DNA from: Heliomicrobium modesticaldum Ice1
Lineage (GTDB): Bacteria > Bacillota > Desulfitobacteriia > Heliobacteriales > Heliobacteriaceae
Length of the DNA: 64,000 nucleotides
Assembly (NCBI RefSeq): GCF_000019165.1
Contig: NC_010337.2
Location: 537,501 to 601,500 of the forward strand
Direction of reading: 5' to 3'
Under the pieces are notes generated by a model. The model saw nothing but the letters and a program-made list of their open reading frames with translations. It searched no databases and was not told where the DNA came from. Positions 49,914 to 61,044 of the stretch are shown in pieces; position 1 is the stretch's first letter; every line of letters begins with the position of its first letter. A program made the position numbers and the translations under genes.

Positions 49914-50465
49914 GCTATCCCCTCACTTCATCTCTTGCTGCATGGGCGAGCCGTCCAGCAGCGGGGCCCTGGTCTTTGTTTGGACTCCATTTCTGTTCCC
50001 TGTTCTCTGGTCCGTTGGGGCGGTCTCCCGGGCGTCAGCGTGCCTTCCTTTGCTCCTTCCGGATGGCCTCCATCAACAACTGGGAAAATCCTTTTGGTTT
50101 TCCCTTGGTCGTTGGGAGGACCTCTTTTGCCCGTCCCCTCTCTTTTTGGGGAAAGTACTGTGGAGAGAAAACGGGGACGACGCGGATGCCATCCATGGCC
50201 ATCTCTCCCTTCGGGTACCCCTACCCAAGTCCCTCACCGTTACTATCGTCTTCCCTTGGAACCAGGTTTAGCCGTTCACACATAAAATTTGTCATTATTT
50301 TCACGTTTTTTCTCTTTGGCTGCGCCGGCATCGCCGGCGGATTTTTTACGGCCCCCATACAGTCGCTGCATACCATTGCCGATCATTTGTTCTTGTGATT
50401 TTATGCTCAAACTTGTATAATATGCCCGTATGTCAAAAGCCAACGCGAAAGGGAGGACCTATCAA
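49914..50465. other. Intergenic region, no recognised feature
   Basis: About 550 bp between divergent genes. It is pyrimidine-rich on the plus strand and holds a small hairpin GGGAAAA...TTTTCCC (50082-50104). Frames that stay open here lack ribosome-binding sites and protein-like composition. No riboswitch or tRNA is recognised. Confidence 0.4.
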
Positions 50466-51251
50466 ATGAACAAATGGATGCGCATCGGCTGCACTGCAGC
50501 GCTCGCCGCAGGCCTGCTCGTCAGTCTCGCTGGATGCGGCGGCAATGCCCCCGCCACGACTGCGACGGCCAAGAAGAAAATCGTCGTCGGCACAGAAGCC
50601 ACCTACCGCCCCTTTGAATGGAAAGACGAACAAGGCGAAATCATCGGCTTCGACGTCGACCTGGCGAGGGAGATCGGCAAGGAGATCGGCGTCGAGGTAG
50701 AGATCAAAAATACGCCCTTCGACAACCTGATCGCCGAGCTGCAAAACCAGAGCATCGACATGATCGCCTCGGCGATGACGATCACGGAAAAGCGCAAAGA
50801 GAGCATCGGCTTCTCCAAGCCTTATTACGATTCCGTCCAGGCCATCATTGTCAAGGAAGGTTCTCCCATCAAGACCCTCGCCGATCTGAAAGATAAAAAC
50901 GTGGGCGTCCAAAACGGCACGACCGGCATGGGCGTGGCTGAAAAACTGTTGGGTGAGCGCAGCACCAGGATCAAGCGCTTTGAAACCTTACCTGACGCGC
51001 TGAACACCCTGCGGATCGACGGACTTGACGCCGTCATCGCCGACAAGCCGGTGGCCCAGAACTATCTGGTCAACAACCCTGATGCAAAACTCCTCATCCT
51101 TGAAGACACCAGCCTGGAAAAGGAACAGTTCGGCTTCGCCGTCCGCAAGGGCGACAGGGAACTGCAGCAACAGATCAACGACGCCCTGGACAAGCTCGAA
51201 AAGAACGGCAAGATCAAAGAACTGTCCCTCAAGTACTTCGGCGCGAAGTAA
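50466..51251 (+). CDS. Amino-acid ABC transporter substrate-binding lipoprotein
   Basis: 261 residues from ATG 50466, behind GGGAGG nine bases away. Signal peptide with lipobox (LLVSLAGCGG). Type 2 periplasmic-binding fold: VVGTEATYRPFEWKDEQGEI, IGFDVDLAREIGKEIG, PFDNLIAELQNQSIDMIASA, MTITEKRKESIGFSKPYYDS, LKDKNVGVQNGTTGMGVAEK, DALNTLRIDGLDAVIADKPV, QINDALDKLEKNGKIKEL. GlnH/polar amino-acid type. No permease or ATPase is adjacent; a strong terminator follows directly, so it is an orphan binding protein here. Confidence 0.93.
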   Translation: MNKWMRIGCTAALAAGLLVSLAGCGGNAPATTATAKKKIVVGTEATYRPFEWKDEQGEIIGFDVDLAREIGKEIGVEVEIKNTPFDNLIAELQNQSIDMIASAMTITEKRKESIGFSKPYYDSVQAIIVKEGSPIKTLADLKDKNVGVQNGTTGMGVAEKLLGERSTRIKRFETLPDALNTLRIDGLDAVIADKPVAQNYLVNNPDAKLLILEDTSLEKEQFGFAVRKGDRELQQQINDALDKLEKNGKIKELSLKYFGAK

Positions 51252-51281
51252 CGCCGTTCGGGCGAATACCTGGCTCACATC

Positions 51282-51312
51282 AGGCGCAGCGCATCATCGC
51301 TGCGCCTTTTTG
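51282..51312 (+). terminator. Intrinsic terminator
   Basis: AGGCGCAGCG / CGCTGCGCCT around CATCAT, then TTTTTG. Confidence 0.93.
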
Positions 51313-51501
51313 ACGTGATTTAGGCAAGCATTATCCCATGTAAAGTCGCCGCTAAAGAACATCTTGTACATATCCTATTCGAAGGCACAAAAAGGTCTCT
51401 ACCATATGAGGGCTTATTGTTTCACCGTTTGGGTCGAAAGTATCGTCCATATCTCCTGGTGGAATTGAATGAATGTAGAGGTGTCGACGTGAATCCTTTT
51501 T

Positions 51502-51531
51502 GTTCTTTACAATTTATTTTTTATAAAGAAC
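51502..51531. promoter_or_regulatory. Inverted repeat GTTCTTTA-N14-TAAAGAAC
   Basis: Perfect 8-bp arms at 51502-51509 and 51524-51531, with a third TAAAGAAC at 51353-51360. A -10-like TATAAT (51567-51572) lies 36 bp downstream. Position fits an operator for the gene at 51616, but a stem-loop is also possible. Confidence 0.45.
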
Positions 51532-51615
51532 ATTGATTTTTTGTTTTAGAAAAGGTAAATTTGATATATAATATACCAGAACATCAGAAAACGAATCTAA
51601 AGGATGGGAGCGTAC

Positions 51616-52281
51616 ATGCGTCAATTTAATGAGTTTTCCCCCCATGATAAGGCGTTGCTGCAACTGGACGCCGATTATCAACGTTACCGCCAGTCCGTTG
51701 AGTTCGCCTTCCAACTGGCCCAAGACCTGGTTAACCGCGCCCTTGAGCCGGTTATGAACGAGCTGACCGCTCTTCGTCAGGCCTTGGAAGAGCTCAAAGC
51801 CACCGTCAAGGAAGAGAGCGAGCGCCAAGCCAGCGCCGCCTCAGCGACCCCTGAGGCGGCTACCGAAGCCGTAGAAACCATCAGTGGACTGGTCGGCGAA
51901 ACGCCCCGCCGCGGCCGCCGCCGCAGAGCGGCCGGGCCGGTCGCCGTGAAACCGCCCCGCATCCGCTGGGGCAACAGCGAAGACGAGATCAAGGCGACGA
52001 TCTTCGAACAACTCCGCCTCCTGGAAGAGCGGGGCAAGGAGATCACCGTCACCAACATCAAAGAAGAAGTCCCCAGCATGATGCGCTTCCTCTATGGCAA
52101 GGACGCCATGTTCCAGGGGATCAGCGCGCTCTTTGAAGAGTACCAGCGCAGGAAGAGCGCCAGCGAGCTACCCGTCCAGACTGCCGCCGAAGCCGACGAC
52201 GCCACGGTTCCGGAAGGCGGCGTGATGGACGAGTTGGTGGAAGCGGAAGACCTGGCTGTGGAGCAGGGCGCCGCGGAGTGA
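51616..52281 (+). CDS. Unrecognised protein with coiled coil and possible HTH region
   Basis: 221 residues from ATG 51616 (GGGAG six bases upstream; ATG 51604 is too close to its site). Residues about 1-65 look helical, with a coiled-coil part (MNELTALRQALEELKATVKE). An Ala/Glu-rich stretch leads to a basic patch RRGRRRRAAG (about 98-107). Then IRWGNSEDEIKATIFEQLRL and EERGKEITVTNIKEEVP resemble a helix-turn-helix of regulator type. The C-terminus is very acidic. I do not know the family. It is monocistronic with an AT-rich promoter region and its own terminator. Nucleic-acid binding is a guess from the basic patch. Confidence 0.65.
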   Translation: MRQFNEFSPHDKALLQLDADYQRYRQSVEFAFQLAQDLVNRALEPVMNELTALRQALEELKATVKEESERQASAASATPEAATEAVETISGLVGETPRRGRRRRAAGPVAVKPPRIRWGNSEDEIKATIFEQLRLLEERGKEITVTNIKEEVPSMMRFLYGKDAMFQGISALFEEYQRRKSASELPVQTAAEADDATVPEGGVMDELVEAEDLAVEQGAAE

Positions 52282-52340
52282 GTTGGCGCTTAGGGGTTAC
52301 GGGTTCTGAATACGGTTTACGTACATGACATAAGACATAA

Positions 52341-52386
52341 AAGAGGCGCCGCCCATGCGTTAGGTTTGGGCGTCGCTTCTTTTATT
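52341..52386 (+). terminator. Intrinsic terminator
   Basis: 15-bp stem (52341-52355 with 52367-52381; one G-U and one mismatch) followed by TTTTATTT; 60 bp past the gene at 51616. Confidence 0.78.
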
Positions 52387-52402
52387 TCCCTTATCGCACT
52401 AC

Positions 52403-52416
52403 ATTCGTATACGAAT
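52403..52416. repeat. Perfect 14-bp palindrome near the CRISPR
   Basis: ATTCGTATACGAAT in the AT-rich 52387-52506 stretch between the terminator and the first CRISPR repeat. No gene starts nearby; the role is unknown. Confidence 0.4.
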
Positions 52417-52506
52417 TATAAAAGTTTTTTACCGAAAAAAAAAAGACCGTACGATTGTTCACTCGACAAATCACAAGATGGTCAAAAAATACGCGGATTA
52501 TGCGAA

Positions 52507-52594
52507 CAACTCACCCCCGCGCGCGGGGAACATTTCTTCTGCGCCCGACCGAAGATGGTATTCCCCGGTTCACCACCGCGTGCGCGGGGAGCAT
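52507..52594 (-). CRISPR. Minimal type I-E CRISPR: two repeats, one 32-nt spacer
   Basis: Repeat A 52507-52533 (27 nt, core CACCCCCGCGCGCGGGGAAC) and repeat B 52566-52594 (29 nt, core TTCACCACCGCGTGCGCGGG) flank a spacer of exactly 32 nt, the normal I-E size. Repeat A lacks two bases at the stem tip and B has a stem mismatch, so both are degenerate. The reverse complement starts with TTCCCCGC as in E. coli repeats, so the array would be transcribed leftward like the cas genes. Only 18 bp separate repeat B from cas2, leaving no room for a leader. Confidence 0.82.
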
Positions 52595-52612
52595 ACTAGA
52601 AAAACCTAATAA

Positions 52613-52882
52613 TTACGGGGCTTCCGCCAAGAAAACACCTTCCAAGTCTACGATACGATACCGGCTCTTTCCGTTGGTTTTCACCGCAAAACCTTGTTCC
52701 GTATTCGTTGTGTAAATGAGTGTCGCCCCACCTCCCGCTGGAACACAGATGCGTTCCCAGAGTTTTTCTCGCACCACCGCAGAAATGCGACCAACAAAAA
52801 CGCCTGATTTGACTTCCACGAGCCACCGGGATAATTCACCTCGGGCAGAAGAGGAGACACGTTCCATAAGAATAACGACCAT
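52613..52882 (-). CDS. cas2: CRISPR-associated endoribonuclease Cas2, type I-E
   Basis: 89 residues from ATG 52882; family alignment (MVVILMERVSSSARGELSRW) favours this start, but ATG 52906 overlapping the cas1 stop would add eight residues. CasE-type Cas2: WLVEVKSGVFVGRISAVVRE and a C-terminal QGFAVKTNGKSRYRIVDLEG. Cas2 forms the integrase complex with Cas1 that adds spacers. Last gene of the operon. Confidence 0.9.
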   Translation of the reverse strand: MVVILMERVSSSARGELSRWLVEVKSGVFVGRISAVVREKLWERICVPAGGGATLIYTTNTEQGFAVKTNGKSRYRIVDLEGVFLAEAP

Positions 52883-52902
52883 TCCCCTCTTAATCCCCTT
52901 TC

Positions 52903-53835
52903 TCATTCATCAGAATAGTTCTTCCCGCCAGATACGATGCCATCCTGATCGTCCCAGATGCCTCCCGGCTTATCGTCGGATCCATCGTACCCTTCTATCA
53001 CCTCAGGCAGATTGATCCCCGAAAACAGCATCGATAAATCTTTGGCAACCCGCTCCAATAACCGTTTGTCATGAAATTGTTGACGACACGCCAACCGAAC
53101 TTCCCTCTCGATGTTTGCGACATCGTTTTTGCCGGCCACGGTGAATGCCACCGGTATTGTGGTGTCCGTTTTGTATATATCCGCCACGTCGTATACGAAA
53201 GACAACTGCTTTCCGGTGTGAATAAATCCAACCGCCGGAGAGTATCCCATCGATACGATAGCCGCATGGCAAACACCGTAGAGGCACGCATTAGCTGCTG
53301 ACAGCGCGCGATTGACGGGATCGGCGCTATTCCAATTTCCCCGGTCATAATTCCTGCCGGTCCATACGACACCATGTTCCTTGGCTAACCTGGCGTATAT
53401 CTGCCGGACGCGACCGCCTTCCATTCCGCGAATCTGCCGCAACGTCATCTCCGGCGAGACAGGTTCCCGGAACCTTAACTCGTACATTCTGCGAACGACC
53501 GCCATGCGAGTATCTGGATTACTCCATAATGACACTTGACGAAGCAGATTTGATGAACTGCGAGTTTCACCCATCCCTTGACCATATACCCGCAGCCCTC
53601 CCTCACCCACCCAAAGGACGCTACATCCACAGTCAGCAAGCGTACGCATGGCGGCATGGGAGACTTTTGTCCCTGGCCCCAACATCAACACACTTAAAGA
53701 CGCGCATGGAACCTGGACTTTTCCATCTTCCCGCCATAAGGCTATCGCTTTCGCCTCTTGCTCCACCACGGCATGCTCAACATAGAGGTAACTGATGCTG
53801 TCCGTCAGCCTGGGAAGTTCATGTAGATCGCGCAT
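52903..53835 (-). CDS. cas1: CRISPR integrase Cas1, type I-E
   Basis: 310 residues. N-terminal beta domain (SYLYVEHAVVEQEAKAIALW, LMLGPGTKVSHAAM) and a helical catalytic domain: RQIRGMEGGRVRQIYARLAK with the metal-binding Glu, then AVGFIHTGKQLSFVYDVADI with His and Asp. A slightly extended C-terminus rich in Asp/Gly. Cas1-Cas2 catalyses spacer acquisition. Three bases separate it from cas6e. All catalytic positions I can see are intact. Confidence 0.95.
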   Translation of the reverse strand: MRDLHELPRLTDSISYLYVEHAVVEQEAKAIALWREDGKVQVPCASLSVLMLGPGTKVSHAAMRTLADCGCSVLWVGEGGLRVYGQGMGETRSSSNLLRQVSLWSNPDTRMAVVRRMYELRFREPVSPEMTLRQIRGMEGGRVRQIYARLAKEHGVVWTGRNYDRGNWNSADPVNRALSAANACLYGVCHAAIVSMGYSPAVGFIHTGKQLSFVYDVADIYKTDTTIPVAFTVAGKNDVANIEREVRLACRQQFHDKRLLERVAKDLSMLFSGINLPEVIEGYDGSDDKPGGIWDDQDGIVSGGKNYSDE

Positions 53836-53837
53836 GC

Positions 53838-54524
53838 TTATCTCCGTTCCAGCAACATCATCATTCCGCAGCCATAACTTTTCGCGGGACCAATTCCCTC
53901 GATAAGAGCCGTTCGAAACCGTTCATCATCAGTCACCTGCAACAAGCCGTAATAATCCACATGGATAACCTGCCCCTTTCCACCCTTACCTAAAAGCAGG
54001 GATTGAGAAGCTCCGATACGGATGCTGGGGGCGCCGGTATGGTCTACAAGCGTTTGAAAGCCGTATTTCTCTCCCTGGCGCATAAGCCATTCCGCCTGTG
54101 CCTCTTGACCGACAAGGAATATTCGTTTGCTATTACGTTTCGGTTCTCCACTTTGCCGCTCTTCTTTGCTGGTGCCGCCTCGTTTGAGTGTTGGATTTGC
54201 GCGCAGGCGAAACCGGAAGACTTGTCCCTGTTGGATGGAATCAAATAGCGGTGCTATATTCTTTACCGCTGCCGGGCGAGTTAAATATCCGGACGGAAGC
54301 TGTTCCCAGGTTGGCGGAAGCCGTGACTGGGCCAAGAGCGTAACGTCTCTTTCTCCAGATGTGTCCAACCAGTAGAGAACGCCATAATGACTGCGGGCGG
54401 ATTCTGTTCCCGATTGAACTTCAGGAAAAGCCCGAAGAAGCGTCCGATGCATCTCGTGCCCACGGGCGATGTCTTTTCGCACCTGGGAGTGTCGGATGTT
54501 CAATAACAACTTACTTAGATACAT
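53838..54524 (-). CDS. cas6e: CRISPR RNA endonuclease Cas6e (CasE)
   Basis: 228 residues from ATG 54524, overlapping the cas5e end by 14 bp. MYLSKLLLNIRHSQVRKDIA and GHEMHRTLLRAFPE carry the conserved His region for crRNA cutting; the C-terminal glycine-rich loop GIGPAKSYGCGMMML is the RAMP signature. Middle segment has a Lys/Arg/Glu-rich loop (TSKEERQSGEPKRNSKR). It processes the pre-crRNA hairpin and stays in Cascade. Confidence 0.93.
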   Translation of the reverse strand: MYLSKLLLNIRHSQVRKDIARGHEMHRTLLRAFPEVQSGTESARSHYGVLYWLDTSGERDVTLLAQSRLPPTWEQLPSGYLTRPAAVKNIAPLFDSIQQGQVFRFRLRANPTLKRGGTSKEERQSGEPKRNSKRIFLVGQEAQAEWLMRQGEKYGFQTLVDHTGAPSIRIGASQSLLLGKGGKGQVIHVDYYGLLQVTDDERFRTALIEGIGPAKSYGCGMMMLLERR

Positions 54525-55203
54525 CCGGATCCCTCCTCCGGTCAAGGTCAACCCAGCCGACGCTGACACGCCGCCGTCCGTACATGCGGGCGCCGTTGAT
54601 CCGCAGTACATCTTGCCGCCATTCCCTTCCGCCCTCGTCCTCCATGACATAGCGGAGTCTGATCGGACCTGCCGCAGGCGCGCTTGACCAAGGGATGGAT
54701 CTCATTGCTTCAAGAACATCCCTAAAATCACCCTCGTAAAAGCTGTCAAACAACGGACGGGCAGGGGGACAACTTTTCCGACCGAGAAAAACCGGCCAAA
54801 CGGGATCGTTTAGCGCCTTTTTGCATTGGTGCAGCGCACCCTGCTCCCCCGTCAACAGCGCCAGAAAAGATGCCTCTTGCAAGTACACGCGCCGGGAAAC
54901 AACTGTATACATATCATTGCCGCTTTTCTTCTGTTTCCCTTCGGCCATAAGGAGATATCCTTGCACCGTATGAAAGTCGATTAACGGCGTTCCCGGCTTA
55001 TCAATACGAACCGTCAACCGAAGGGCGGCATCCAGTGACTCCAGACGCTTGTCGTTTCGGGACCAGCCCAACGCGCAGCCCAACAAGCCGATGATTCCCG
55101 ACTTGGTGGGTTCTAGCGCGCTGTCGCGGTAATCCCAACGGGAGCGGCTGCCCCAGGATTGCAAGGGGCCTTCCAGGCGAAGTGCCAGAATGGGTATCCC
55201 CAT
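54511..55203 (-). CDS. cas5e: Cascade subunit Cas5e (CasD)
   Basis: 230 residues from ATG 55203 (GGAGG seven bases upstream; a nearer ATG is too close). ILALRLEGPLQSWGSRSRWD, RDSALEPTKSGIIGLLGCAL and GWSRND are typical of Cas5e, then a C-terminal GRRRVSVGWVDLD segment. Caps the 5-prime handle of crRNA in Cascade. Overlaps cas6e and nearly abuts cas7e. Confidence 0.93.
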   Translation of the reverse strand: MGIPILALRLEGPLQSWGSRSRWDYRDSALEPTKSGIIGLLGCALGWSRNDKRLESLDAALRLTVRIDKPGTPLIDFHTVQGYLLMAEGKQKKSGNDMYTVVSRRVYLQEASFLALLTGEQGALHQCKKALNDPVWPVFLGRKSCPPARPLFDSFYEGDFRDVLEAMRSIPWSSAPAAGPIRLRYVMEDEGGREWRQDVLRINGARMYGRRRVSVGWVDLDRRRDPDVSK

Positions 55204-55205
55204 TC

Positions 55206-56366
55206 TCATTCCTCCCCTTGCTGCAACGCCGCCGTCAGTTCTTCCACCAACGCAGGAAAAGTGGATACCTGATCTGTTGTCATTTTCGGAGACTCGCATC
55301 CCATCAACAACAACCATCTCCGGTTTGGAGTTAGGCCGAAGCACTTTTCCGTCTCTTTCACATGATCAAGAAATGCGTTTACGCTGGCCTGCACCAAATC
55401 CATTTCCCCCCGAGCCGTAACCGGTTTGACGAAAGCGTTGGCGTAGCTGACAGGAATTTTTCGCTTTTTTACTTCCACCAGTACTGCCGAGGGCAGTTGC
55501 CGCGCCGCAAAGGAATTCTGTTTGCCGTCAGGTGAACAAAACACAAGCGATTCAATAAAGGCTTTTACGATATGCGCTGCATCCCTGGCAAGGTCCTGCC
55601 GTTCTTCAGCGGTGAGTTTTTTCAAGCGATCCGGACCGGCCAGATTGCGTTTCAACTCATCCATATCCACATTGAAGTACTTGTAATAGCAACAGGAATT
55701 GAACTCGGTGTCTCCGATCATGTCGGCGCCGCTATCACCGTCCCCCATTAAATCGTCAACAGCCGTAAAGTAATCAAACTCGCTGTCCACGCGGTGGGTA
55801 GAGATCGCATGTCCGACCTGAACCGATGCCTCCACATCGTTAAAGGCGGTAGAGGTGGTCATCCTGCCGAAAAGAGCCACATCCACCGTTACAGGACGCC
55901 AACCAACCAGTTCCGGGTCTTTTTGCAGTTCCTGCGCTTTGATCGCTTTCGCCTGCTTTACCGTCTTGTCCTTCAAATGGCGGAACAAACAGCGTGCGAT
56001 GACGCTCACATCTTCCTGAGTAAGAAAAATCGCCTGCGCTGTGATCTCATCGTCCCGCTCTTTCCCGTCTTTATTGCCTAAGCCGCTCGCCTTCCGAGCG
56101 CCGATTTTGGCCAGTTCCTCACTCAGGCCTAAGCGCATCAGTTCTTCTTTGACGAGAAAAGGCAGTTTGCGCGTGCGCATCCCCAACCGGCTCTCACCAA
56201 TGCTGTCTTGAAACAGCGGCGAACAGCGAATTGTGCGCTTCTGGCACTGACTGGAGATGCGACCCCGACGCACGCCGCCAAACATACAGTCTTTCGGGCT
56301 TCCGCTCTCATCCCGGTTCAGATTAGCCGGCGCATGGTTCTGCAGCACATGAATCTCTACCAACAT
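55206..56366 (-). CDS. cas7e: Cascade backbone subunit Cas7e (CasC)
   Basis: 386 residues. EIHVLQNHAPANLNRDESGS and PKDCMFGGVRRGRISSQCQK are the characteristic N-terminus of Cas7e; later FGRMTTSTAFNDVEASVQVG, HAISTHRVDSEFDYFTAVDD, and a C-terminal LPSAVLVEVKKRKIPVSYANAF. Six copies coat the crRNA spacer. Start overlaps the cas11 stop (TGATG). Confidence 0.94.
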   Translation of the reverse strand: MLVEIHVLQNHAPANLNRDESGSPKDCMFGGVRRGRISSQCQKRTIRCSPLFQDSIGESRLGMRTRKLPFLVKEELMRLGLSEELAKIGARKASGLGNKDGKERDDEITAQAIFLTQEDVSVIARCLFRHLKDKTVKQAKAIKAQELQKDPELVGWRPVTVDVALFGRMTTSTAFNDVEASVQVGHAISTHRVDSEFDYFTAVDDLMGDGDSGADMIGDTEFNSCCYYKYFNVDMDELKRNLAGPDRLKKLTAEERQDLARDAAHIVKAFIESLVFCSPDGKQNSFAARQLPSAVLVEVKKRKIPVSYANAFVKPVTARGEMDLVQASVNAFLDHVKETEKCFGLTPNRRWLLLMGCESPKMTTDQVSTFPALVEELTAALQQGEE

Positions 56367-56929
56367 CAGTTGTCCCCTCCGTCGTTTTCTTGTTCTTCTC
56401 CCGTACCATTAGATTTTGAGCCGAAAAATTCCCTGGCCCAGCGCTTTTGCACAATCCGACTCTTCCAGTGCCAAATTCGCAAGTCTGTCAGCAGTCCCGC
56501 CCAGTCAATGGGCACACGATTATCCACGAGACGCTTTACCACCTGAGGCAACCGATAAAACAACTCTTCCTGTGACGCATCCAACAATTTTGTGACCTTG
56601 CGCTGCCAACCATTGGCCCCATCCGCTTCAAACCCGTCTTTGCCTAGAAAATCGAGGAGAGAGCGGGCAAAAGACCGTTCCTCGGCCTCTTTTTCGGAGC
56701 GGTCAAGACAGCAAAGGCAGGCGATGAGAAACCAAATGTCCTCCTCCCATTCAGGGATGCTTCTCGGACACAGGCGGTAGAACAGCGGCAACGCGCCCCG
56801 TGATTCGGACAGCCGGCAGCCTGCGTTTCGTTTGAGCAAGGCCCGCTCCCCCGGCGTCAAGCTCTTAACACGTTGAATGAAGTCTTCCGCTTTATTTCGG
56901 ATCGCGTCTCCCCGGTTTGCATCATTCAT
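56366..56929 (-). CDS. cas11e: Cascade small subunit Cas11e (Cse2/CasB)
   Basis: 187 residues, helical. FIQRVKSLTPGERALLKRNAG and LPLFYRLCP, FLIACLCC, LPQVVKRLVDNRVPIDWAGL with WHWKSRIVQKRWAREFFG fit Cse2. It stabilises the R-loop in Cascade. Located between cas8e and cas7e, the standard I-E order. Confidence 0.92.
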   Translation of the reverse strand: MNDANRGDAIRNKAEDFIQRVKSLTPGERALLKRNAGCRLSESRGALPLFYRLCPRSIPEWEEDIWFLIACLCCLDRSEKEAEERSFARSLLDFLGKDGFEADGANGWQRKVTKLLDASQEELFYRLPQVVKRLVDNRVPIDWAGLLTDLRIWHWKSRIVQKRWAREFFGSKSNGTGEEQENDGGDN

Positions 56930-56938
56930 GACTGATGA

Positions 56939-58510
56939 TCACCGTCCTTTCTTTGCCGCATCTTCATCCTTCGAGGGAGACTTTACGCCGATGAACCTCA
57001 ATGAACGTCGCAGGTACTGTTCCGCCTGAATCTGACGGCGCATCGCCTCCGCGTCCGATACGTTTTCTTTCGTCGCTTCGGTAAAATAATCACTGGCTTT
57101 ATTTCTGATCTCTTTTGTCCATGCTTCCATAAGGGTCTCTAGGTGCTTGTCAGGGTCCTCTTCTTTCGCCGTCCCTGCCAGAACGCTTAGAAAAGCCAGA
57201 TAAGGCGCCTCCAGACTTAGCCAGTAGGCATCCTCAACACGCTGTCCCCATTCACCCGGCCAGATTTTTTGTTCCTTTTTTCCTTTTTTCTGTTTGATTT
57301 GAACACACATGTTGACGGCCTTGCGAAGCGCCCACGCCGCTTTTTCCGCATTGTTCATCGCCTGAAGCGCGAATTCTTCTCCGTTGGGGACTTGCTCTAA
57401 GCCGGCGGGCAACTGCAATTCCTCATAGCGCCAATCCAGGTACTTCATATTGCCATCCGTTTGAAGCCCATATACCTCGATGGTGGTCGTTTGTTGTTCA
57501 CATTCTAAGTAGATCGATGCTTGATTCAAGATGGGCGCTCGTTCATAACTGTTCTTCTCTTGAACGCCTTTACCGGCGCCGTCGATCAGCGCCAGCGGTC
57601 CTACATCCCGCCAAGTCTGTCGACCCCAGCGAGGTCTTACGAAACTCCGCCCTTTGTCGGTATTCACGACAGCGACATTGGGATCTCTCCACGTGTCCAC
57701 TCTCGCCTGAAACCCGGCTTCGAACACCATCTGCCGGACTCCCCATTGACAACTCCTGCCGCTGTATGTGCATTGGAACGGTCCCATTTCGGGAATCAAA
57801 GTGACACGACGCGGCTGCCATGTGAGCCCTTCCAAGAGCCTCGCCTCTGACCTTGTTTCCCCTCGTGAGGGACGCCGGTCTCGCCAGGCGGGAATGCCTC
57901 GATCTTGATCGGTAATCCAGTAATTCAGCAGCAGTGTTTCGAAGAGGTTATCTCCCTTTCTCCACACGTAATAAGGAGGGTTGCCGTTGATACTGGGAGA
58001 GAGTCCCTGCCCGCCGGCCGTAGTGAAGGGCGAAAGTGTGGTCATTATTCGGGCGCAAACGTCCGGCGCGAGGACATATTCGTCCTGAAGCCGGTGGTGA
58101 AAATGGATGACATTCGTTCCCGTCGGCAATTGGTGAAACAGTTCGGCAACTGACTTTCGTTTTACCTTTTCTTGTTCCCGAGGCGGAACCTGTAAAAAGG
58201 GCCGCTCCGCATCAAACAGGTCAAAATAGACACCGTATTTTTCCCAGTAGGCGTTCAGTTTCGTTTCGTCAAACTGCCCTTCTTCCATCAGTTCGAGTCG
58301 ACCCCGTTGACCTTTTAGCGGGAAAATATCGATTATAAGGGCCTGTAAAAAGCGATACAAACCAAACTGGATCAAGGGTGATTCATCAATGACTTCGCTC
58401 CATTCATGGGCTTTGGCAAGCACATCCCGCAAGTGAACGACGCAAATCCGTCCCTTCACATCCCGGACCGTCACCCATGGTTCTGTCAGTAAATCAAAGG
58501 CTGGTTGCAT
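56939..58510 (-). CDS. cas8e: Cascade large subunit Cas8e (Cse1/CasA)
   Basis: 523 residues. N-terminus FDLLTEPWVTVRDVKGRICV is typical of Cse1; then LIQFGLYRFLQALIIDIFP, PTGTNVIHFHH, RIMTTLSPFTTAGGQGLSPS, INGNPPYYVW, DQDRGIPAWRDRR. Recognises the PAM and recruits Cas3. Start overlaps the cas3 end by 17 bp, so translation is likely coupled to cas3, which matters because cas3 is broken upstream. Confidence 0.93.
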   Translation of the reverse strand: MQPAFDLLTEPWVTVRDVKGRICVVHLRDVLAKAHEWSEVIDESPLIQFGLYRFLQALIIDIFPLKGQRGRLELMEEGQFDETKLNAYWEKYGVYFDLFDAERPFLQVPPREQEKVKRKSVAELFHQLPTGTNVIHFHHRLQDEYVLAPDVCARIMTTLSPFTTAGGQGLSPSINGNPPYYVWRKGDNLFETLLLNYWITDQDRGIPAWRDRRPSRGETRSEARLLEGLTWQPRRVTLIPEMGPFQCTYSGRSCQWGVRQMVFEAGFQARVDTWRDPNVAVVNTDKGRSFVRPRWGRQTWRDVGPLALIDGAGKGVQEKNSYERAPILNQASIYLECEQQTTTIEVYGLQTDGNMKYLDWRYEELQLPAGLEQVPNGEEFALQAMNNAEKAAWALRKAVNMCVQIKQKKGKKEQKIWPGEWGQRVEDAYWLSLEAPYLAFLSVLAGTAKEEDPDKHLETLMEAWTKEIRNKASDYFTEATKENVSDAEAMRRQIQAEQYLRRSLRFIGVKSPSKDEDAAKKGR

Positions 58511-61044
58511 TGGGTTCCTCCTTCCCTAACCGAAATCCCAGTTCATCGTCGTACTCAATGCGGATTACATTTCCCCCTTTGCTTGTCCCCTCCCAAAATG
58601 AAGGAGAGCCTGGATGCATTGGCATCACACTCCACTGGCGATATGGCTTCAATGCTGGGAGTTCGCACCCGCTCAACCATTTTTCTGGCAATGACACATG
58701 ATACTTCATCCAATGATGCAATTGTTCGTGAGAAACGAGGCCTTGTCCCACCCGTTCCCATTCGTCCTTCGGCACCGCCAGCACGCTGCGCGTTTCACTA
58801 CCTATTCGCGTGACCGCATGCAGGTGACTGGAAACCTCTCCTTCGGAGACTTCTTCATTGACTGCAAAAATGGGCGTAACGGCCAACTCACTTTTCAACG
58901 GTTTTGGATATAGCGACTCCCGCGCTCGTTGCTGCTGTTCCACTTGATTTTTTCGATACTCCTCCCGGACCGACGCTAACGAGTAGAGCCATTCGTCCGG
59001 CACGTTTGCGATTTCATCATCATAAACGGATTCAATAAGGGGACGGAAATCTTGGGGTAACTGGAATTGGTTTCGTTTTTGCAAGACAGCCAGGGTTTTC
59101 AGCAGCACAAGTGGTTCGTACACTGCCCCTGTCTTTCCCCAATAGAATCGTTCCGCTATTTCAGGCGCAAAGATGGAAACATTTGCTTTGCTCTCGGCGT
59201 GATTCAACCGTCTTGGTCGTTCGTGCCGCCAGAGACGACCGATGCGCTGGAGCAACAAATCGATGGGGGCCAGTTCCGTGAACAGCACATCAAAGTCGAT
59301 GTCCAGCGATTGCTCGACTACCTGAGTGGCCACCAAAACAGCCCGTTTCGGCCGACGTGCGGGATCCTGCAAACTGCCTTTATCCAACCAACGGAGAACC
59401 TTGTCCTCAATTGCTTTGCGCCGTCCCGCAGTGAAACGGGCGTGGTACAGCAGCAACTCAACATCACTCGGCAAGCGACCTTTTCTATGTAGTTTTTTTA
59501 GTTTTCGGAAAACTTGTTGCGCCATATACACGGTGTTGACTACCACGCCAGCACAACCACTATCATGTGCGTCTGCCCAGTCCAAAACGGCGTTGACGAT
59601 CGCTTCAGCGTTTTCTAACGCGCCGGGAAGCATTCGCAGGTTGTACTCCTGATTTGGCCGCGAGGGTAAGACAGGAAATTCGCAAGTCTTGGCGTCAACG
59701 GCTACGGTGACCAACGGATACTGTTGATTCACTGCACCTTCTATGACATCCCCGCCATATGCCTCAAGCAGTTGTTTACGCCGCTTAACTGGGAGCGTCG
59801 CCGATAAAAGAACAACGGGAATGCTCAGATGTCCGCACCAGGCAAGCAATTGATCAATGATGGTGTTCATATAGGTGTCATAGGCGTGGACTTCGTCGAT
59901 CAACAGTCCCTTCCCCGCAAGTCCCAACAACCGCAGGCAGCCGAACTTCACGCGCATGGCGGCCAGCATCGCCTGATCCACCGTGCCCACCCCGTAAGGG
60001 GCCAATAGCGCCCGCTTTTTCGGACGGAACCAGTCTTCGCGCTCGTCTTCCTCCCAATATTGTTTTTGCAAATCCAACAACCAAGCCATCCCGTGAACGA
60101 GTCGCAACCCTTTCTCGGTTCCTTGATTGGAGAGCAACTCTTGCACCCGAGAATACATCTGATTGGCCGTCGCCGCAGTCGGCAGCGCCACATACATACC
60201 ATCCCCACCGCTGCCAGCGACCCAACAGTTTAATAGATAGATGCCAGCCTCAGACTTCCCTTCTCCCATCGGGGCTTCGATGATCGCCAACCCTCCGGTT
60301 TTCTCACTGCGGGCAATTTGTTCACATAGGGCTTGCAGCGGCCTCAGGGACGGCAAGTGGAGATGTCTCCAAAAGCGGAGAAAGGAGTCCTCTTCTGTCA
60401 TCTCTGCGTTTATTGGTTTTTTGCCGCTTAAACCTACTTGGTCAAGGAATTGCAACGCTAGGACTTCGAAGTTCTTCTGCTTGGCCTGGTGCCAATCAGG
60501 AATATCCCCTCCAAAAAACGCTTCGGAAGACGCTATCCAATCAGCCAGCACGGTGATTCCAGACAGCAACATGCCAAAGGTACTGTGATCGGGGAAATCT
60601 TGTTGCTTCCAAATATCCATTTGAAAAAAACGAAGCAACTCTTCCACTACCTGTAATCTCAGTTGTTTCCAAAGTTCATTTATACTCGCACTACCGTCGT
60701 CAACCCGCTTGCAAGGGACAACAAATGAACCATGGTGTCCCTGTAACGCCAGACCCACTGTTCCGGAGCTAAAACGCCCCCATCCCTTCGATCTCAGCCA
60801 TTGTTCCAGCCAAAGGCGTGTATAAGCCTCATGGCGAATGTCGACGCGCGAGGCATGTGGGAGAAGCTCTCGTTCAATCCAATCCTGGACAACGGGCAGC
60901 CCTATGCCTTTTACCTGAAATTGCGCATGACACTTTCCAATATCATGCATAGCAGCGAGAAAAGCAGTGCGAATAATCGCTTCTTCTTTCGTCCAACCGG
61001 AAGCACGTTGCAGTTTGTCGACCAGACCGGAAAATGGGCTACGT
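58494..61044 (-). pseudogene. cas3: Cas3 helicase-nuclease, main part (5-prime end cut off by IS)
   Basis: From the IS junction (last original base 61039) the frame reads SPFSGLVDKLQRASGW, KEEAIIRTAFLAAMHDIGKC and then 818 more residues from ATG 60950. HD nuclease motif MHDIGK is present. Helicase motifs: APMGEGKSEAGIYLL (Walker A), LLIDEVHAYDTYM (DEVH), LSATLPVKRR, QVVEQSLDIDFDVLFTELAP, QRIGRLWRHERP. The upstream 32 codons lie at 62959-63055. With the IS removed the protein is 880 residues, normal for I-E Cas3. An internal start at 60950 could give a protein lacking the first HD-domain helices. Confidence 0.92.

Follow-up and report, generated by a model that had tools for sequence, protein, structure and literature searches.

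The window, by which we mean the whole stretch of 64,000 nucleotides analysed here, contains a gene (A) that is real, conserved and under purifying selection, and that is an ordinary member of an uncatalogued, lineage-specific family. As far as our homology searches indicate, this family is small and nearly confined to the heliobacteria, most of which carry two to three paralogs. We put at about one half the probability that A encodes a coiled-coil, helix-turn-helix-like DNA-binding protein that serves as a local transcription regulator or DNA-architectural protein and is not itself regulated via the TAAAGAAC words found upstream of it. The work names and delimits an uncatalogued family nearly limited to the sole phototrophic Firmicutes, and each of the three paralogs could be deleted by an existing method, the native CRISPR procedure for H. 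modesticaldum described in PMC12016533.

A conserved gene with its own promoter

The gene and the signals around it are as follows.

51289 to 51305, plus strand: terminator-like hairpin of the upstream SBP_bac_3 gene, weak because one was found and shuffles lead one to expect 1.5
51561 to 51576, plus strand: promoter core TTGATATATAATATAC with TATAAT at 51567-51572, identical in 5/5 subfamily A loci
51599 to 51604, plus strand: likely ribosome-binding site AAAGGA; TAAAGGA is invariant in the aligned A loci
51616 to 52281, plus strand: coding sequence of 221 amino acids, subfamily A of the heliobacterial family
52337 to 52385, plus strand: terminator-like hairpin with a U-rich 3' arm (-29.8 kcal/mol, z -6.1)

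The original prediction of an unrecognised 221-residue gene holds: the open reading frame is real, and its protein reaches E 0.01 with no model of Pfam, NCBIfam or PHROGs. Starting from the in-frame ATG further upstream, at 51604, would lengthen the protein to 225 amino acids, but 51616 is the better start: AAAGGA precedes it at a distance of 11 bases, and 2/4 orthologs lack the ATG at 51604. Against the two nearest orthologs, dN/dS is 0.22 (0.057/0.263, sister species G004) and 0.14 (0.100/0.732, G003).

With a conserved promoter core before it and a terminator-like hairpin after it, A probably forms a transcription unit by itself. TTGATATATAATATAC, TGTTTT and TAAAGGA are identical in all five aligned A upstream regions. 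We ruled out a regulon of the promoter core, since the genome holds no second close copy: there is one exact place, and four places at 3 mismatches compare with 8 control matches. A search of positions 50000-53000 with Rfam returned two matches, both far below gathering scores.

Upstream repeats are not conserved

Attention had been drawn to this locus by three half-sites upstream of the gene, which were read as an operator set, possibly autoregulatory. All three TAAAGAAC words are present, at 51353-51360 (plus), 51502-51509 (minus) and 51524-51531 (plus), and they make up two features.

51353 to 51360, plus strand: third TAAAGAAC copy, not conserved in orthologs
51501 to 51532, no strand: perfect inverted pair TGTTCTTTA-N14-TAAAGAACA with 9+9 bp arms, absent in orthologs and probably accidental

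An autoregulator acting on these words would account for a perfect pair that lies 5' of the promoter core, is unique in the 3,075,407-bp genome as an exact inverted pair and is accompanied by a third copy. We nevertheless regard this explanation as very improbable. Across the 330 bases that precede the start codon, none of the four orthologs (G004, G003, G001 and G002) has an 8-bp inverted pair or a TAAAGAAC on either strand, even though the promoter core is identical and the sister species G004 encodes a protein 88% identical; its arm positions read GTTCTTCA and TAAAAAAA in the alignment. Because the core is identical in 5/5 loci and the words are kept in 0/4, we take the former to be selected and the latter not. 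The scan for the 8-bp arms that had been suggested as a check also speaks against an operator: TAAAGAAC occurs at 48 places genome-wide, fewer than the 69 of a reversed-pattern control, and therefore marks no regulon.

Chance could produce the arrangement at a moderate rate. In 2000 dinucleotide shuffles of the 352-bp intergenic stretch, a pair with 8-bp arms (loop 3-30) appeared 349 times, such a pair plus a third copy 26 times, and a pair with 9-bp arms 101 times. Across the 64 kb, TAAAGAAC has 3 copies where 1.05 are expected, and at least three arise in 6/100 shuffles; 9-bp inverted-repeat seeds (loop 3-30) number 55 where shuffles average 10.2, which makes inverted repeats in general a common feature of the window. 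The TAAAGAAC set is thus not clearly above chance, being unusual at the few-per-cent level for a feature picked by eye in 64 kb. Its words look accidental rather than selected, and we see no need for more work on them.

Protein architecture

Four segments can be distinguished in the protein.

51640 to 51846, plus strand: long N-terminal helix, residues 9-77, with heptads and a predicted coiled coil (AlphaFold2 model, heptad test)
51907 to 51957, plus strand: basic linker RRGRRRR..., residues 98-114, net charge +7 by count
51958 to 52164, plus strand: conserved C-terminal domain, residues 115-183, starting RIRWG, with four predicted helices and weakly helix-turn-helix-like (alignment, models)
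52171 to 52278, plus strand: acidic tail, residues 186-221, net charge -11 by count, poorly predicted by the model

The coiled coil, basic patch and acidic tail that had been proposed from the sequence are all borne out. AlphaFold2 modelled the whole protein from 15 rows with a mean pLDDT of 72 and placed helices at residues 9-77, 122-138, 145-151, 153-160 and 169-183, the long helix having block pLDDT values of 82-95 over residues 11-70. Its heptad contrast was reached in 0/1000 letter shuffles, and that of the four A orthologs in 0 to 5 of 1000. Modelled alone (pLDDT 78, pTM 0.61), the C-terminal domain takes up the same four helices, at 10-26, 33-39, 41-48 and 57-71 in the numbering of that model.

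The N-terminal helix has a net charge of -4, the C-terminal domain is neutral with 13 basic and 13 acidic residues, and the whole protein carries -13. RIRWG and other C-terminal residues are invariant in 22/22 aligned rows, covering all paralogs. A basic RGR-type linker is found in every row of subfamilies A, B and D, sequence drift aside, and is missing from the C paralogs. The core of an AT-hook is RGRP; the A linker lacks it, as RRGRRRR has no P after RGR.

Comparison with known folds and families

The profile searches, a kind of check that had been suggested for this gene, revealed no clear known family; with Pfam, NCBIfam and PHROGs, A and its paralogs gave only weak coiled-coil-like or chance matches. 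A sequence-profile search of the PDB with the A protein returned keratins, designed bundles and similar at E 0.03 or worse, and the C-terminal domain alone had two matches at E 0.18-0.25. No match was found in phage and plasmid collections with tblastn, and the family is not mentioned in what a literature search returned, including passages of PMC9145376 and PMC12016533.

The possible helix-turn-helix of the original prediction survives as a weak resemblance of fold but has no counterpart among Pfam helix-turn-helix models, none of which matches the C-terminal domain of A; HTH_15 appears at E 0.26 in 1/15 relatives. Foldseek gave nothing below E 0.4 against the PDB or viral models (best E 0.43). 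A second structural aligner placed the TetR protein PfmR (PDB 3vpr) at the top for the C-terminal domain, with Z 4.5 over 68 residues and rmsd 5.0, a Z in the range of common helix arrangements and below the level that stands out. Eight of the 12 structures listed (3vpr, 4ets, 5icn, 7ao8, 8pnc, 3anp, 1ftt and 6wig) are, by their titles or as we presume, of helix-turn-helix, homeodomain or SANT type.

Kinship with TetR, suspected from this top row, was rejected at the sequence level. Comparison by hhalign with four TetR domains of the same genome scored 10.8 bits against a permuted-control median of 10.65, a weak test with a small profile, and TetR_N is absent from the Pfam matches of 15/15 domain rows to E 10, matches above about 0.1 having mostly been filtered out. 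A weakly resembles the TetR DNA-binding domain in its predicted succession of four helices but differs in layout: TetR proteins have an N-terminal helix-turn-helix followed by an all-helical ligand domain, whereas in A the similar domain lies at residues 115-183 of 221, with a low-confidence acidic tail after it and no ligand-binding domain. KfrA-type plasmid proteins join a DNA-binding domain to a long coiled coil, a combination that A would share if its domain binds DNA; A, however, has the reverse order, is chromosomal, is present in all heliobacteria examined and has no Pfam match. Coiled-coil proteins of histone-like or phasin-like type whose tails are basic, PhaF for example, have an amphipathic helix and a basic stretch as A does, but A differs by its conserved globular C-terminal domain and has no Pfam phasin match.

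Distribution of the family

The genome, a single contig, carries three paralogs, and the other two lie away from A. The family is present in 9/9 genomes of its own taxonomic family, with two to three paralogs in eight of them. At class level it occurs in 9/82 genomes, all within that taxonomic family, and in a phylum-level draw in 6/398: four are again heliobacterial, and two (G113 and G189) belong to f36 and match weakly, with best E values of 2.3e-8 and 1.8e-5. A search of the 398 genomes for the C-terminal domain in other architectures gave only the four own-family genomes and a 21-residue match in G455 (E 0.002), which was taken as chance. Named contigs yielded no relative when scanned with the A protein alone and 14 loci when searched with the family alignment, 11 heliobacterial and three in MAGs of other Bacillota (L034, L035 and L039).

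Subfamily A is found in five genomes, and its orthologs share the same neighbourhood, with identities over aligned residues of 88% (G004) and 81% (G003) in the same genus and 58% in G001 and G002. In a tree with several long branches, whose deeper joins are unsure, a Heliorestis pair, D, joins A (support 99/99), and the three MAG proteins, X, group beside subfamily C (C+X 100/100), which occurs in 6/9 genomes. Subfamily B is found in 9/9 genomes and forms a single clade in 26% of bootstrap trees, so it is not shown as one.

An N-terminal module missing from A and B is present in C, X (L034 and L035) and the f36 proteins. This basic module, TG..KG..G.VG.M..P.DL, is common to paralog C and the Firmicute proteins L059, L060, L062 and L063, which end differently. 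The latter resemble subfamily C in the module but have no RIRWG domain, and the A protein does not have their module. They give weak profile matches only, among them HTH_23 near threshold in L062 (E 1.8e-4).

Possible functions of the protein

In the reading we prefer, the N-terminal helix would form a dimeric or larger coiled coil and so pair two C-terminal domains, which together with the preceding basic linker would contact DNA as a helix-turn-helix-like unit. A would thereby act as a local transcription regulator or DNA-architectural protein, expressed from its own promoter core as a single-gene unit and not controlled through the TAAAGAAC words. The original suggestion of a DNA-binding or nucleoid protein named the most likely kind, because a coiled coil, a basic linker and a C-terminal domain with a predicted fold weakly like a helix-turn-helix occur together, but DNA binding itself, likely as it is, is something we infer. 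We count in favour of this reading the family's presence in 9/9 genomes, its three paralogs in this genome, the strong grouping of A+D and of C+X, the dN/dS ratios (0.22 and 0.14), the heptads (0/1000), RIRWG (22/22), the four-helix model (pLDDT 78), the 8/12 structures of DNA-binding type, the +7 linker and HTH_23 in L062. Counted against it are a commonplace Z of 4.5, a best Foldseek E of 0.43, a TetR profile score of 10.8 against 10.65, an uncharged C-terminal domain, atypical for a DNA-binding protein, the lack of a basic linker in the C paralogs and the lack of a Pfam helix-turn-helix match to the A domain.

The neutral domain would suit a protein that does not bind DNA at all, namely a coiled-coil scaffold or adaptor that uses its C-terminal domain to bind another protein, as would the lack of any homology-level tie to a DNA-binding family, the fold matches being weak only. 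We give this explanation some weight and hold it unlikely, given the basic linker kept in all A, B and D rows and the helix-turn-helix-like layout of the helices. Somewhat less plausible is a nucleoid protein without sequence specificity, an oligomer bridging DNA through its basic linker: coiled coil, linker and acidic tail are all compatible with it, as are the two to three paralogs in 8/9 genomes, but the overall net charge is -13, and of all parts the C-terminal domain is conserved best, ahead of the linker's charge, which points to a specific surface.

Nitrogen-related neighbours

A further possibility concerns the genes on which the paralogs might act. A adjoins a gene for an amino-acid binding protein (SBP_bac_3), of which the whole genome has three, in 5/5 loci; B lies near asnB in 8/9 loci and near livK in 6/9; and C lies near glnA in 6/6. 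Outside the heliobacteria, the MAG contig L034 likewise carries glnA near a C-type gene, and L035 has an SBP_bac_3-like gene (43% over 226 residues) near one. These neighbours would fit regulators linked to nitrogen or amino acids, with A acting on the amino-acid binding protein, B on asnB and C on glnA. We consider this doubtful, however, as the pattern was noticed post hoc with no preset category, and within each subfamily adjacency is largely one inherited event. Moreover, none of the four neighbour queries was found at the Heliorestis A orthologs (D, 2/2), L031, L039, L085 or L086, which include two distant f36 loci, and no shared operator or motif was seen among the upstream regions of A, B, C, glnA, asnB, livK and SBP3. 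It is more improbable still that the three would be lineage-specific coiled-coil regulators making up a home-grown nitrogen control of amino-acid uptake, asnB and glnA, unrelated in sequence to known nitrogen regulators, with a C-type ancestor already beside glnA outside the heliobacteria. If the neighbour pattern does reflect function, the family would offer a handle on nitrogen control in heliobacteria.

Several upstream regions are conserved in their own right. The region before glnA (L075 upstream of 1695, minus strand; L069 upstream of 11115; and orthologs) keeps the blocks GTCAC...GTGAC and GGCAA.G.CGC.TTC across two genera; Rfam gave no family at gathering score in L075, and a cis-acting RNA before glnA is possible. 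Before asnB (L068 upstream of 12014, minus strand, and orthologs), the blocks GGACAGGC.CA, CATA, GCTAC and TGAAAATGAAA.TCA are kept across two genera, and L068 likewise yielded no Rfam match at gathering score. Paralog B (L068 upstream of 9885, minus strand, and orthologs) has a conserved promoter-like stretch, TTGCAT.ATGTATTGAATATT.CAA..A.GC..ATACTATTTCC, in 5/5 aligned loci; within it lies TTGAATATTTCAA, which in three of the five is an inverted repeat.

CRISPR neighbourhood

The gene had also been described as lying beside a CRISPR array. This is true in the window and in G004, where a type I-E-like array with cas genes follows as the next downstream locus, but the association is unsupported, since it concerns only 2/5 orthologous loci. 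No open reading frames similar to these cas genes were found at the G003, G001 and G002 loci; 3' of the A ortholog, the G001 locus (L026, H. chlorum) carries a prismane-family gene and a pyridine nucleotide oxidoreductase gene. All five loci retain the same upstream neighbours: the SBP_bac_3 gene, an HD-domain gene and a CheB/CheR fusion. With the other two paralogs of the genome located elsewhere as well, a CRISPR accessory role for A is extremely unlikely.

The array at 52515-52594 of the window is reduced to two diverged repeats, and the same place in G004 (L066 7620-9080) has about two dozen, counted by eye. Between window positions 52906-60950 and L066 33-7308, the putative cas1 reading frame is 98% identical, and the putative effector frames beside it are just 25-37% identical (the cas names are those we presume), a pattern that would fit a swap of the effector module with the adaptation genes left in place. 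The repeat core given for Heliomicrobium modesticaldum in a passage of PMC12016533 has 20 exact copies in the genome.
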